From NCBI GenBank assembly GCA_017531385.1, contig JAFXLD010000096.1, positions 1 to 47,382 of the forward strand: a stretch of DNA of 47,382 nucleotides. Direction: 5' to 3'. Below are positions 40,023 to 46,862 of the stretch, in pieces; the stretch's first letter is position 1, and each line of letters opens with the position of its first letter. This DNA comes from Clostridia bacterium. GTDB lineage: Bacteria; Bacillota; Clostridia; Oscillospirales; Acutalibacteraceae. The position numbers and the translations under genes are program-made. Below the pieces are notes generated by a model. That model saw nothing but the letters and a program-made list of their open reading frames with translations. It was not told the origin of the DNA and ran no database searches.

Positions 40023-40057
40023 TAAACAATAATTTAGCGGAGCTAAATTATTGTTTA
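40023..40057. repeat. Perfect palindrome at the dnaN stop codon
   Basis: 16-bp arms TAAACAATAATTTAGC (40023-40038) and 40042-40057 with loop GGA. The right arm contains the dnaN stop codon. No T-tract follows before yaaA, so it is not a classical terminator; an mRNA processing or partial attenuation element is more likely. Its end sequence is shared with the dispersed repeat copies. Confidence 0.85.
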
Positions 40058-41155
40058 ACTAAGTCTTACGGGAAGAATAAGATACAGGAAAGATTCTCCC
40101 GAAGTGGGAACGATACAGACGGGTGAAAGCGGATTTACCATATTGATAAGAATTTCATCCTCTTCACTGGCTCTGAGTGCATCAAGAATATATCTTGACT
40201 GAATACCGATTTCAATATCGTTTCCGTCAACGGATACTTCAAGTTTATCGTTAGCAGTACCCAGAGCTGTCGCAGTTGAAACACGAAGTTCGTTTTCCTT
40301 GAATTCAAGTTTCAGAGGAGCTTTGAAACGGTCTGTAATAATAAGCGAAACACGTTCAACACTGCTTACAAGATCTCTTGTCTTAGCTCTGATAACTGTA
40401 TTGAAATCGTGAGGAATGATTGATTCATATTTCATGAATTCACCCTCAAGAAGTCTTGAAATGATTGTATAACCGTTTATCTGGAAAAGAATATGGCGCC
40501 TGCCAAGACCTACTTTCACAAAATTTTCATCATCAGTAATAAGCTTCATTATTTCTCCCATTGTTTTTGCAGGAACAACGAATGAAAGCTCTTCACCGTT
40601 ATAATTTATAAATTCTTTTCTTATTGCAATTCTGTGTGAATCAATTGCAACGAGTCGGAGTTCACCGGGTTTTATTTCAAATTTTATACCCTTGTGAATA
40701 ACTCTTACATCATTAACGGCAACGGAGAAAATTGTTTTCTTTATCATATCCTTAAGAACTTTACCTGATATGTCAATATTTTTACCGTTTATAATAACAG
40801 GAAGTTCTGGATAGTCTTTTGGGCTGATGCCTGTCATGTAATATTCAATATCACCGCAGTAAATCTTACACTGCAGTTTTTCATCAGTTTCGAATATTAT
40901 TTTATCATAAGGAATATGTCTTATGATGTCGCAAAAAGTCTTTGCATTTATGATAACAGAGCCTTCCTCTATAACGTCAGCCTCAATCGAAGTTTCGATT
41001 CCTATTTCCAGATCATAACCTGTAAGCTTTACTCCGTTTTCAGCTGTAGAGAAAAGTATACCTTCGAGAATAGGCATTGCTGTTTTTGTCATAACAGCTT
41101 TCTGTACATTCATAGCCGCTTCAGCAAGAATGGAAGTATTGCATATAATTTTCAT
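40055..41155 (-). CDS. dnaN: DNA polymerase III beta subunit (sliding clamp)
   Basis: 366 residues, full length, three clamp domains. It begins MKIICNTSILAEAAMNVQKAV and ends ILPVRLS, the usual clamp C-terminus. Unusually no ribosome site is visible immediately before the ATG (ATTGCAATCAAA). A short upstream reading frame with a purine-rich site overlaps the start, see 41121-41195. It is transcribed with the following genes of the origin cluster. Confidence 0.97.
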   Translation of the reverse strand: MKIICNTSILAEAAMNVQKAVMTKTAMPILEGILFSTAENGVKLTGYDLEIGIETSIEADVIEEGSVIINAKTFCDIIRHIPYDKIIFETDEKLQCKIYCGDIEYYMTGISPKDYPELPVIINGKNIDISGKVLKDMIKKTIFSVAVNDVRVIHKGIKFEIKPGELRLVAIDSHRIAIRKEFINYNGEELSFVVPAKTMGEIMKLITDDENFVKVGLGRRHILFQINGYTIISRLLEGEFMKYESIIPHDFNTVIRAKTRDLVSSVERVSLIITDRFKAPLKLEFKENELRVSTATALGTANDKLEVSVDGNDIEIGIQSRYILDALRASEEDEILINMVNPLSPVCIVPTSGESFLYLILPVRLS

Positions 41156-41195
41156 TTTGATTGCAATGCGGTTTTAAACATAAGGTTAACCGCAT
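41121..41195 (-). CDS. Possible 24-codon leader reading frame overlapping dnaN start
   Basis: ATG at 41195, preceded by AGAAGGGAGAT, reads MRLTLCLKPHCNQNENYMQY and ends at a TGA about 30 nt inside dnaN, in another frame. It contains the hairpin TGCGGTT/AACCGCA (41167-41194). It could feed ribosomes to the dnaN start, which lacks its own ribosome site. Only sequence layout supports it. Confidence 0.3.
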   Translation of the reverse strand: MRLTLCLKPHCNQNENYMQYFHSC

Positions 41196-41504
41196 ATCTC
41201 CCTTCTAAAGACTTTTTTTGTTTCACAAAAACCATACACAACATAACTTTACATATATATAGAAGTTATATTAGTAGTGTATGTTCAAAGTGTTCAAAAC
41301 CCTGTTTTTTTCTTGAATACAGTGATTTTGTGATGATTTTTTTATGTATAAAACGATGACGGAAATATGTGTAAAATATATTTCTTTTTCAGAATTATAA
41401 AAAAATGTTTAAAATGTTCAAAACTGTCATGTTTAAAAACAATAACATGTTCAAAACCCGGTTTCAGTTATGAACAGTCTGAACGTTTAAAAAATGTTTA
41501 TAAC
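41156..41504. other. Candidate oriC region: array of DnaA-box-like 9-mers (dnaA-dnaN intergenic)
   Basis: A 349-nt AT-rich gap holding repeated 9-mers TGTTYAAAR (minus strand TTTTGAACA or TTTTAAACA). Copies sit at 41282-41290, 41291-41299, 41406-41414, 41415-41423, 41430-41438 and 41448-41456; two pairs abut with no gap. TGTTTATAA (41495-41503) and TTATGAACA (41468-41476) are two mismatches from the canonical TTATCCACA. No perfect canonical box was seen. The location is a standard origin site in Firmicutes. Confidence 0.65.
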
Positions 41505-42836
41505 TTAACTGACTTTAAACTGTTTGATTATATTATAAACAGTATTTTTGAATTTTACGTCATGTCTGATTCTTTCTTCAACAGTATCAATTGAGTGTTT
41601 TACGGTTGAATGTTTTTTTCCGCCGAATTTCTGTCCGATGTTTTCAAGCGAAAGTCCTGTAACTTCTCTTATGATATACATAGAAACATTACGAGCAAGA
41701 GAAATATTTGCATTTCTCTTTTCTGAAACGATATCAGACTTTGACACGCTGTATTTATCTGCGACGCTTTCAATAATTTCATCAACAGTTGCTGAAATGG
41801 GTTTATTATCTGTTGCAATATCCTGAATGATCTGCTGAATACTACCCATTGTGGGGTCTATACCGTAAAGTGATTTCATTGCAGCGATTTTATTGATAGT
41901 ACCTTCAATCTGACGTATATTGTTCTTGATTTTTTCTGCAATATAGTTTATCATCGGTTTTGTGAGTTCAAGACCGCTTTCTTCTGCTTTTGTAATGATA
42001 ATTGCAGTTCTTGTTTCAATATCAGGCGGCTGAATATCAGCAATAAGACCGCTTTCAAATCTGTTTTTTATACGCTCATTAAGACCTTCAATTTCTTTCG
42101 GAGGACGGTCTGATGTAATAACAATCTGTTTGTTTGAATTGATAAGATCATTGAAAGTGTGGAAAAACTCTTCCTGTGTAGATTCTTTATCTTTGAAAAA
42201 CTGGATATCGTCAATAAAAAGAGCATCAGCATTTCTGTATTTTGCACGGAAAGGCTTGTTATCCTGGTTTTTCATGCAAGTGATAAACTCATTAAGGAAA
42301 TTTTCACTTGTTGTATATACAATGTTTATATTTTTATAGCGTTTTCTGAGCTCATCCTGAATAGCCATCATAAGATGAGTTTTTCCGAGACCTGAATTTC
42401 CGTAAATAAAAAGCGGATTATAAACAGATCCCAATTCAGCTGTTGCAACTCTCCATGAAGCTGCATGAGCAAGCTTGTTTGAAGAACCTACGATGAAGTT
42501 TTCGAAGTTATAATTCGGGCGTGAATTTGTTGATTCTGTTTTCGGAGGTTCTTTTTTCTGTTCTATGATTTTTTGTTCTGATTCTTCTTCTGATTCTACT
42601 CTGAATTCAATATCGAGATCGATTCCCAGAACTGCTTCAAAAGCATTTTTTAATGTATCATGAAATTTATCTTTAAGAATACCGTTTCTGAATTCGGAAG
42701 CTGATGTAATAACAACTTTCCCATCAATGAACTGAGGATTTTCGATTTTGTATATCCATGTCTTAAAGGTTGTTTCTGACATTATGTTTTTGCAGTATTC
42801 AAGTACCTGATCCCATACTTCCTGAAATGATTCCAT
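41505..42836 (-). CDS. dnaA: Chromosomal replication initiator protein DnaA
   Basis: 443 residues, four domains. Domain I spans 1-75, a Glu/Lys-rich linker reaches about 110, and the AAA+ domain follows with Walker A GNSGLGKTH and Walker B ALFIDDIQF. Domain IV runs from about 345 to the end. In the DNA-binding signature, the usual GGRDHTTV reads GGKKHSTVKHS: K407 and K408 replace Arg/Asp, H409 is kept, and S410 replaces Thr. The minor-groove Arg in LARNVSM is conserved. The ribosome site is AAAGGAAA. A candidate promoter with a DnaA-box-like sequence lies upstream. Confidence 0.98.
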   Translation of the reverse strand: MESFQEVWDQVLEYCKNIMSETTFKTWIYKIENPQFIDGKVVITSASEFRNGILKDKFHDTLKNAFEAVLGIDLDIEFRVESEEESEQKIIEQKKEPPKTESTNSRPNYNFENFIVGSSNKLAHAASWRVATAELGSVYNPLFIYGNSGLGKTHLMMAIQDELRKRYKNINIVYTTSENFLNEFITCMKNQDNKPFRAKYRNADALFIDDIQFFKDKESTQEEFFHTFNDLINSNKQIVITSDRPPKEIEGLNERIKNRFESGLIADIQPPDIETRTAIIITKAEESGLELTKPMINYIAEKIKNNIRQIEGTINKIAAMKSLYGIDPTMGSIQQIIQDIATDNKPISATVDEIIESVADKYSVSKSDIVSEKRNANISLARNVSMYIIREVTGLSLENIGQKFGGKKHSTVKHSIDTVEERIRHDVKFKNTVYNIIKQFKVS

Positions 42837-46124: not shown

Positions 46125-46862
46125 TTATGTGCAGAAATAATGTCTGCCGATAACCGTAACAACAGGTCTTGATCTGATCCATTTATTGCTGGTCTTTGAC
46201 GGGTTATAATAATATATTGCGCCGCCTGTCGGATCCCAACCGTTTATTGCATCGCTTGCAGCTTTTCTTGAAGTTGAACTGGGTTCGACTCCCCAATTGC
46301 TGTCGTATACACAATCGAATGCGCCTGACTGATATACAACTCCGGATATTGAATCCGGAAAAGAAGAATGATCCACACGGTTGAGTATAACTGCGCCTAC
46401 TGCAACCTGTCCTGTATAACTCTCCCCTCTTGCCTCTGCTTCAATAACCTTTGCAAGAAGATAAACATCGTTTGATGAAAGACCGCCTGAAGAACCTGAA
46501 CCAAGTCCCAGATATAATAATGTTTTAGGACCGGCAATGCCATCCGCTTTTAATCCGCAGTTTTTTTGAAAAGAAATTACGGCTTTTTGCGTATTAGATC
46601 CATAGATGCCGTCAATACTACCGTTATAATATCCCAGCTGTTTTAGTTTTGTCTGGATTTGTCTGACCTCATTACCTCTGGATCCGTATTGAGATAATAC
46701 TGATTGAGTAGAATTATTAACCCGGTTATGGTTAATGTAGTTGTGAACTATTGAAGTATATTCGATCATTTTCGACATAAGAAGCACAAGCAGGATTATA
46801 GTAAAGGCTTGCCAGAGTTTTTTTATAACTCTTCTGTTTATTTTGATTTTGTTTCTGTCCAT
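46125..46862 (-). CDS. sleB: Spore cortex-lytic enzyme SleB-like (PG-binding plus Hydrolase_2)
   Basis: 245 residues. An N-terminal membrane helix/signal (about 15-33) is followed by a peptidoglycan-binding domain (about 50-110; GSRGNEVRQIQTKLKQLGYYNG, IDGIYGSNTQKAVISFQK) and a SleB/CwlJ-type lytic transglycosylase domain (about 120-245). Key parts of the latter are LLAKVIEAEARGE with the likely catalytic Glu, AVGAVILNRV, and GAIYYYNPSKTSNKW. SleB degrades muramic-lactam cortex during germination, so the organism probably forms spores; close relatives such as YkvT act in vegetative cells. Start chosen at 46862 with GGGAG upstream. No clear sigma-G promoter was recognised. Confidence 0.88.
   Translation of the reverse strand: MDRNKIKINRRVIKKLWQAFTIILLVLLMSKMIEYTSIVHNYINHNRVNNSTQSVLSQYGSRGNEVRQIQTKLKQLGYYNGSIDGIYGSNTQKAVISFQKNCGLKADGIAGPKTLLYLGLGSGSSGGLSSNDVYLLAKVIEAEARGESYTGQVAVGAVILNRVDHSSFPDSISGVVYQSGAFDCVYDSNWGVEPSSTSRKAASDAINGWDPTGGAIYYYNPSKTSNKWIRSRPVVTVIGRHYFCT

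Follow-up and report, generated by a model that had tools for sequence, protein, structure and literature searches.

As an essential protein, DnaA has to recognise many boxes simultaneously. In E. coli DnaA, Asp433 and Leu438 are reported to contact the position-7 base pair of the box (PMC8235120, accessible part), and box position 5 has been reported as not specifically read (PMC5043019, accessible part). The basal unwinding system of the Bacillus type, as set out in the available portion of PMC8287927, comprises tandem DnaA boxes (6 and 7), a spacer and DnaA-trios. According to excerpts of the respective papers, Mollicute boxes conform to TTWTC(C/A)ACA, those of A. laidlawii to TTWTYMACA, and a phytoplasma candidate is TTAGGAACA (PMC3322544); the DnaA box of Thermotoga maritima is AAACCTACCACC, and TTTTCCACA boxes are found in cyanobacteria (PMC10225481).

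The locus described here lies in the window, i.e., the whole 47,382-nucleotide stretch of clostridial DNA that was analysed, in which dnaA, a 349-bp gap and dnaN follow one another on the minus strand. It is considered highly probable that the gap is an origin and that altered 9-mers within it constitute the DnaA boxes of this lineage, that the presence of Lys408 in place of Asp433 goes together with a change of box positions 5–6 from C-C or C-A to a purine followed by A (TTTT-RA-ACA), and that a tandem pair of these boxes loads DnaA. From sequence comparison we infer that DnaA binds these words and that residue 433 sets their letters, as well as the manner in which it might do so.

Putative altered boxes between dnaA and dnaN

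The dnaA gene (41505–42836, minus strand) encodes a full-length, 443-residue member of the DnaA family, which scores 476.6 bits against NCBIfam TIGR00362 (cut-off 343.9), exceeds the Pfam cut-offs for Bac_DnaA, Bac_DnaA_C and DnaA_N (thereby covering the ATPase and helix-turn-helix domains) and matches the solved DnaA 8btg over residues 1–440 (E 1e-96). At the start of the recognition helix in domain IV, codons 405–412 (41601–41624, minus strand) specify GGKKHSTV, and alignment with 1j1v, a chain of E. coli domain IV, places Lys408 at the Asp of GGRDHTTV, as the sequence-only reading had proposed. An Asp at E. coli position 433 is usual, although not required for membership of the family, and its replacement by Lys408 marks the protein as a variant DnaA. 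The gene at 40055–41155 (minus strand), which borders the origin region on the other side, is presumably dnaN, judging from sequence knowledge and gene order. The intervening 349 bp (41156–41504, strand not applicable; 26% G+C) represent the predicted oriC core. GC skew was dropped as an origin marker, the cumulative G-C minimum within the window falling at 46,678, ~5 kb outside the gap, in a draft genome of 107 contigs.

The gap contains six exact copies of TTTTRAACA, five in the orientation of dnaA and one opposite, and no TTATCCACA, in agreement with the original description of at least six altered 9-mers, two unspaced head-to-tail pairs and no perfect TTATCCACA. Proceeding from dnaA, the near copy TTATAAACA adjoins the dnaA stop (41495–41503, minus strand) and a further near copy, TTATGAACA, lies in reverse orientation (41468–41476, plus strand). 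These are followed on the minus strand by TTTTGAACA (41448–41456), at a site that most of the aligned genus rows retain, by TTTTAAACA (41430–41438), and by an abutting head-to-tail pair of TTTTGAACA (41415–41423) and TTTTAAACA (41406–41414), all four being exact and the last three also found in the genus alignment. The second unspaced pair, likewise on the minus strand and in the alignment, consists of an exact TTTTGAACA (41291–41299) and CTTTGAACA (41282–41290), which carries one mismatch. The exact TTTTAAACA near dnaN, opposite to the dnaA orientation (41172–41180, plus strand), is the least certain box because it is absent from the sites kept in the genus alignment. Canonical boxes, whether sought as TTATCCACA or as the loose E. 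coli consensus TTWTNCACA, do not form a cluster at this predicted origin, the sole loose match in the gap being TTTTACACA (41368–41376).

Clustering of the altered word in the gap is strong: dinucleotide-shuffling this sequence 10,000 times gave a mean of 0.17 copies and a maximum of three, and the genome rate predicts 0.016 copies against the six seen (Poisson P 2.7e-14). Genome-wide, TTTTRAACA is at background, with 116 sites in 2,466,958 bp against 108 for a reversed control, on which ground the idea that the word is enriched or avoided across the genome was dropped, and its enrichment over the whole window is not significant (seven matches against a shuffle mean of 3.96, seven being reached in 9 of 100 shuffles). 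Equal frequency of the 9-mers elsewhere, named beforehand as an outcome that would speak against the proposal, was therefore not what was found, the words being packed in the gap. Their background frequency, together with the ease with which TTTTAAACA arises in AT-rich DNA, would nevertheless suit a simple drift towards A+T, in which C was lost from the region and the words are due to chance or weakly constrained. Such an explanation is scarcely credible given the shuffle maximum of three, the retention of many sites across the genus alignment, and the presence of TTTTGAACA itself in 15 of 20 gaps of the Lys/Ser/Thr/Gln433 class (see below) against 0.7 expected.

All nine rows of the genus with GGKKHSTV (window included) have 2–7 TTTTRAACA per gap, with many box sites aligned, and none of the nine gaps contains TTATCCACA or TTWTCCACA; relatives combining GGKKHSTV with ordinary boxes, the other pattern that would have weakened the proposal, are thus absent from these rows. 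Boxes just 5′ of dnaA were dropped as a candidate for the genus, the 300 bp upstream of dnaA containing neither TTWTRAACA nor TTWTC(C/A)ACA in 9/9 rows. The genus label is carried by 11 genomes, one of them without a dnaA match. A further genus-labelled genome, G105 (locus L123), encodes a DnaA of ~50% identity on a long branch, with GKTHSTV and a single TTTTAAACA only, and possibly reflects dnaA replacement or a mislabelled bin.

Read in the direction of dnaA, positions 41299–41240 present the order TTTTGAACA-CTTTGAACA-TACA-CTACTAATA-AT-rich, which corresponds to box 6, box 7, spacer, DnaA-trio and unwinding stretch. The trio-like repeat CTACTAATA (CTA-CTA-ATA; 41269–41277, minus strand) lies 4 nt past box 7, and the AT-rich stretch beyond it (41240–41268, minus strand) is, from the order of the module, the probable unwinding element. 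Provided that the altered words are boxes, a basal unwinding module with tandem boxes, a spacer and at least three trio repeats is present at 41299–41269 (minus strand). The same module occurs in many Asp433 relatives, where words resembling TTTTCCACA or TTTTCAACA fill the box slots. When the slots preceding the trio were picked automatically, a procedure that found no trio at 20 loci and made several poor picks, one or both of the slots contained TTTGAACA in 9/9 GGKKHSTV rows of the genus (window included); the exceptions in the other slot were L119, with TTTTCAACA in the box 6 slot, and L117, with GTTTCTACA. On the strength of this module and published work, DnaA is predicted to load on the tandem altered boxes 6 and 7 beside the DnaA-trio, and, as described for the unwinding module of the Bacillus type, the loaded protein would then oligomerize onto the trio and open the AT-rich stretch.

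Residue 433 and the letters of the box

Across genomes, boxes were scored as GA (TTWTGAACA) or CC (TTWTCCACA). A dnaN-bounded gap was present at 320 of the 344 DnaA loci found, and removal of 18 identical-gap repeats left 302 distinct gaps, a non-random sample that is weighted towards the window's relatives and genomes chosen for lacking Asp433 and that includes a subset of the loci within families. Three gaps of the window's family are identical to those of named records (Candidatus Onthovicinus excrementipullorum, Oscillospiraceae bacterium MH27-2 and Oscillospiraceae bacterium Nc350_bin166), which suggests a place for this family inside the Oscillospiraceae of NCBI. Among the 49 gaps in which residue 433 is Lys, Ser, Thr or Gln, GA boxes occur in 41, CA boxes in four and CC boxes in none; among the 172 in which it is Asp, CC boxes occur in 117 and GA boxes in five. 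Counted as copies, the former gaps hold 91 GA and no CC boxes in 15,911 bp and the latter five GA and 217 CC boxes in 62,828 bp. His433 gaps (n = 40) have CC boxes in 21 cases and GA boxes in two, and Asn433 gaps (n = 41) are mixed (CC in four, CA in 31, GA in eight). The pairing has exceptions, in that 8/49 Lys/Ser/Thr/Gln gaps are without a GA box and 12/58 Asp rows of the window's family are without CC or CA boxes.

The sequence-only reading had held that the box centre changed from CC to GA or AA together with the recognition helix. The co-change is upheld by comparison over the 302 gaps, with a correction to the letters involved: local Asp relatives use TTTTC(C/A)ACA, for which reason TTATCCACA was dropped as comparator, and against this local form neither T at position 3 nor A at position 6 is a novelty. 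In the presumed boxes position 5 carries the new letter, a purine, and CC boxes are gone. Loss of Asp alone was also rejected as the cause, because a pyrimidine persists at position 5 in the His433 rows and in most of those with Asn433. As CC boxes are retained in His433 lineages, the change goes with the side chain gained and not merely with the loss of Asp.

Counts of 9-mers made without presupposing a box placed TTTTGAACA-type words on top in the Lys/Ser/Thr/Gln class (15–16 of 20 gaps against 0.3–0.7 expected), TTTTCCACA in Asp gaps (29/58) and TTTTCAACA in Asn gaps (12/18). A motif model returned TTWTGAACA for family f67, TTTTC(C/A)ACA for Asp and C/T followed by A/G for Asn. Its result for the class to which the window belongs was an ambiguous, near-palindromic GTTT(T/C)(A/T)(A/G)AAC mix, and it was too small to read for families f53 (two gaps) and f19 (three gaps).

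Five gaps of His433 relatives (L194, L195, L197, L070, and L090) are without any TTWTNNACA, which hints at uncaptured box forms. Family f1 includes four loci with Lys or Gln433 (L167, L171, L174, and L266) that have 0–2 TTWTRAACA plus words such as TTTTCGACA, TTTTCTACA, and TTTTAGACA, as well as the chief exception on the Asp side, L142, with Asp433 yet four TTTTAAACA and no CC box.

Among the 110 columns of domain IV, column 408 (E. coli 433) ranks first for information on box type, with 0.681 bits against 0.486 for the next column (190 informative gaps), or 0.531 against 0.290 after subtraction of a shuffled-label baseline (157 informative gaps of an earlier subset of 257). The four other contact columns tabulated rank 94 (407, E. 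coli 432), 105 (410, E. coli 435), 23 (413, E. coli 438), and 51 (414, E. coli 439), and among the 24 GA users of the earlier subset these positions vary (K/R at 432, S/T at 435, K/H/M/I/L at 438, H/N at 439). Ser410, which had been counted as part of the changed signature, was dropped from the code because of this rank of 105 and because, in the window's family, 46 of the 58 rows with Asp433 have Ser at the E. coli 435 position.

Raw gap counts are inflated by shared descent, and independent pairs were counted on a tree built from the AAA+ part of DnaA, using rows scored for both traits. The contrast of Asp with Lys/Ser/Thr/Gln yielded three independent pairs, concordant in box type in 3/3 (sign test p 0.25), which correspond, as read on a smaller DnaA tree, to the window's family, f67 and f53. 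When Asp was contrasted with all other residues together, there were nine independent pairs, in which box type followed in 1.1 (mean) and showed no difference in 7.8; this contrast is much weaker because His and most Asn lineages retain C-type boxes.

Family f67 is the cleanest case, with GA boxes in 25/26 and CC boxes in 0/26 of its Lys/Ser/Thr gaps, and CC boxes in 8/8 and GA boxes in 1/8 of its Asp gaps. One of its Asp members, G987, labelled as the same genus, branches first from nine Lys/Ser/Thr rows (support 84, not starred) and has C at several aligned sites where most Lys/Ser/Thr members of f67 have G or A. The Asp row of f53 (L288) has TTTTCAACA in the gap and two copies of TTATCCACA upstream of dnaA; in the Ser and Thr rows of this family the gap contains TTTTAAACA or TTTTGAACA, and some TTTTCAACA occurs upstream of dnaA. 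For f67 and f53 alike, the Asp sister rows use C boxes. In family f19, genus g168 combines Asn433 with TTTTRAACA, from which it follows that Asn lacks one fixed outcome, and two Asp rows have one CC box each. The claim that the code is private to the window's lineage does not hold, since two further families of the class have the altered boxes with Lys/Ser/Thr433 and one further family of the order has them with Asn433. A class-wide codon scan of 391 genomes detected 18 loci, ten of which are DnaA (window included) and eight not; a phylum-wide codon scan of 398 genomes detected 19 new loci, of which tblastn with the window DnaA identified none as DnaA, and a phage search using a relative's dnaA gave no match. 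At five f67 loci (L303, L376, L378, L379, and L394) the DnaA match has one in-frame stop in the aligned range, perhaps where the match overruns the true end.

Since there are just three clean independent transitions, the boxes could be real and their letters changed with residue 433 a passenger, one or more other residues of domain IV setting the specificity and 433 co-varying by descent. Arg422 and further columns are also informative, Asn433 pairs with differing boxes by family, and E. coli Asp433 is reported at position 7, not at positions 5–6 (PMC8235120, accessible part), all of which would agree with such an arrangement. It is nonetheless regarded as unlikely, column 433 topping all 110 and positions 432, 435, 438, and 439 each varying among the GA users and ranking as given above.

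Residue 433 is the position that we favour as the switch for the box letters, and the occurrence of the same pairing in other families of Clostridia suggests that a simple, readable code may exist between an essential protein and its sites. In the widest form of this proposal, which is put forward as somewhat probable, residue 433 would act throughout Clostridia as a one-position switch for the box centre (C followed by C/A with Asp, C/T followed by A/C with His, mostly C/T followed by A/G with Asn, and a purine followed by A with Lys/Ser/Thr/Gln), whole origins and outside boxes would have been rewritten accordingly at least three times, and the resulting pairs should not cross-read. The preferred explanation, drawn from general chemistry, is one of hydrogen bonding, in which Asp as an acceptor would favour the amino bases C and A, the donors Lys, Ser, Thr, and Gln would favour purine N7/O6, and Asn and His would be intermediate. 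What speaks against a simple direct readout by residue 433 is that Asp433 of E. coli is reported to touch position 7, which is the same in the altered boxes, and that position 5 reportedly lacks specific recognition there. The helix may be seated differently, or residue 433 may influence position 6 and, via that position, also position 5.

A second group of putative boxes 3′ of spoIIR

Five altered boxes are found within 104 bp directly 3′ of spoIIR (G000:C69:239–342; L001 239–342), the gene being identified by Pfam Spore_II_R (E 3.7e-45). In the eight of 11 genus genomes where spoIIR was located (L331–L338), 2–6 TTWTRAACA lie within 389–420 bp 3′ of the gene in 8/8, and the sister genus G117 has three 3′ of spoIIR. 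Among 29 other spoIIR loci of the family, one has a single TTWTRAACA and 28 have none (two of the 28 had <250 bp left). The next gene is convergent to spoIIR in L332 (HAD-like hydrolase), L333 (spoVT) and, as judged by eye, L334, L336, and L338; in G117 (L339) the gene after spoIIR runs in the same direction.

E. coli datA is a known DnaA-box cluster outside oriC (PMC5742627, accessible part), and provided that the altered words are boxes, the spoIIR-side locus would be of the same kind in having several boxes outside oriC that are conserved in relatives. Reuse of the altered word at this site supports the word being the DnaA box of the lineage. The cluster is, at a guess, a putative DnaA-binding reservoir, and it might function as a DnaA titration site or provide a link between replication and sporulation. 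The occurrence of the 9-mers here, distant from dnaA, might also be expected of sites bound by a different, lineage-specific protein, with the true DnaA boxes being weak or degenerate. This is very improbable: the 9-mers occupy the box 6 and 7 slots next to the DnaA-trio, their letters track a DnaA residue in other families, box clusters outside oriC have a precedent in datA, and the best 14 enriched words of the Lys/Ser/Thr/Gln class, besides the box, either overlap it or are the AGAAGGGA word.

Inverted repeats of the GTAAAG...CTTTAC type interleave, as seen by eye, with the spoIIR-side boxes (L001 190–340; ~2170–2400 in L332, L334, and L338) and are possibly a candidate site for a second regulator. 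A third small group, comprising two TTTTGAACA and one near copy in ~45 bp, is located at G000:C28:26240–26282 (L002 1241–1283).

Relation to known initiator–box systems

A residue-to-letter rule with repeated flips would make the co-evolution of initiator and site directly testable, would allow the DnaA sequence to be used for predicting origins in cases where searches for TTATCCACA are unsuccessful, and might supply non-cross-reading initiator–origin pairs for in vitro use. Purine-5 boxes tied to residue 433 are not described in the available text of the open-literature matches listed, subscription papers and preprints lying outside that scope.

Like the Bacillus-type system, as far as the accessible part of PMC8287927 describes it, the window has a tandem box, a short spacer, a CTACTA-type trio and an AT-rich stretch between dnaA and dnaN; unlike that system, its boxes are TTTTGAACA and CTTTGAACA and are not TTATCCACA-like. 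The Epsilonproteobacteria, with the box core TTCAC, provide a parallel in that a letter particular to the class at position 5 accompanies changed residues of the recognition helix (PMC5043019, accessible part). There, however, position 5 is T, residues 433–434 are described as highly conserved and 435, 438, and 439 vary, whereas in the window a purine occupies position 5 and the changed residue is 433 itself. The Mollicute boxes, in the portion of PMC3322544 available, share C/A at position 6, and the phytoplasma candidate ends in GAACA; these organisms belong to a different phylum, the phytoplasma candidate differs at positions 3–4, and that portion of the text draws no link to a residue. T. 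maritima DnaA resembles the window DnaA in having a non-Asp residue at 433 (Ser; aligned fn-rshpvv) and a divergent box, but the entire box differs and, according to the part of PMC7561715 available, all contact residues but one differ from those of C. difficile. The TTTTCCACA boxes of cyanobacteria and of Asp433 relatives in the family share the frame TTTT-NN-ACA with the window, with C5C6 at the centre in contrast to R5A6, and the family relatives that use TTTTCCACA retain Asp433.
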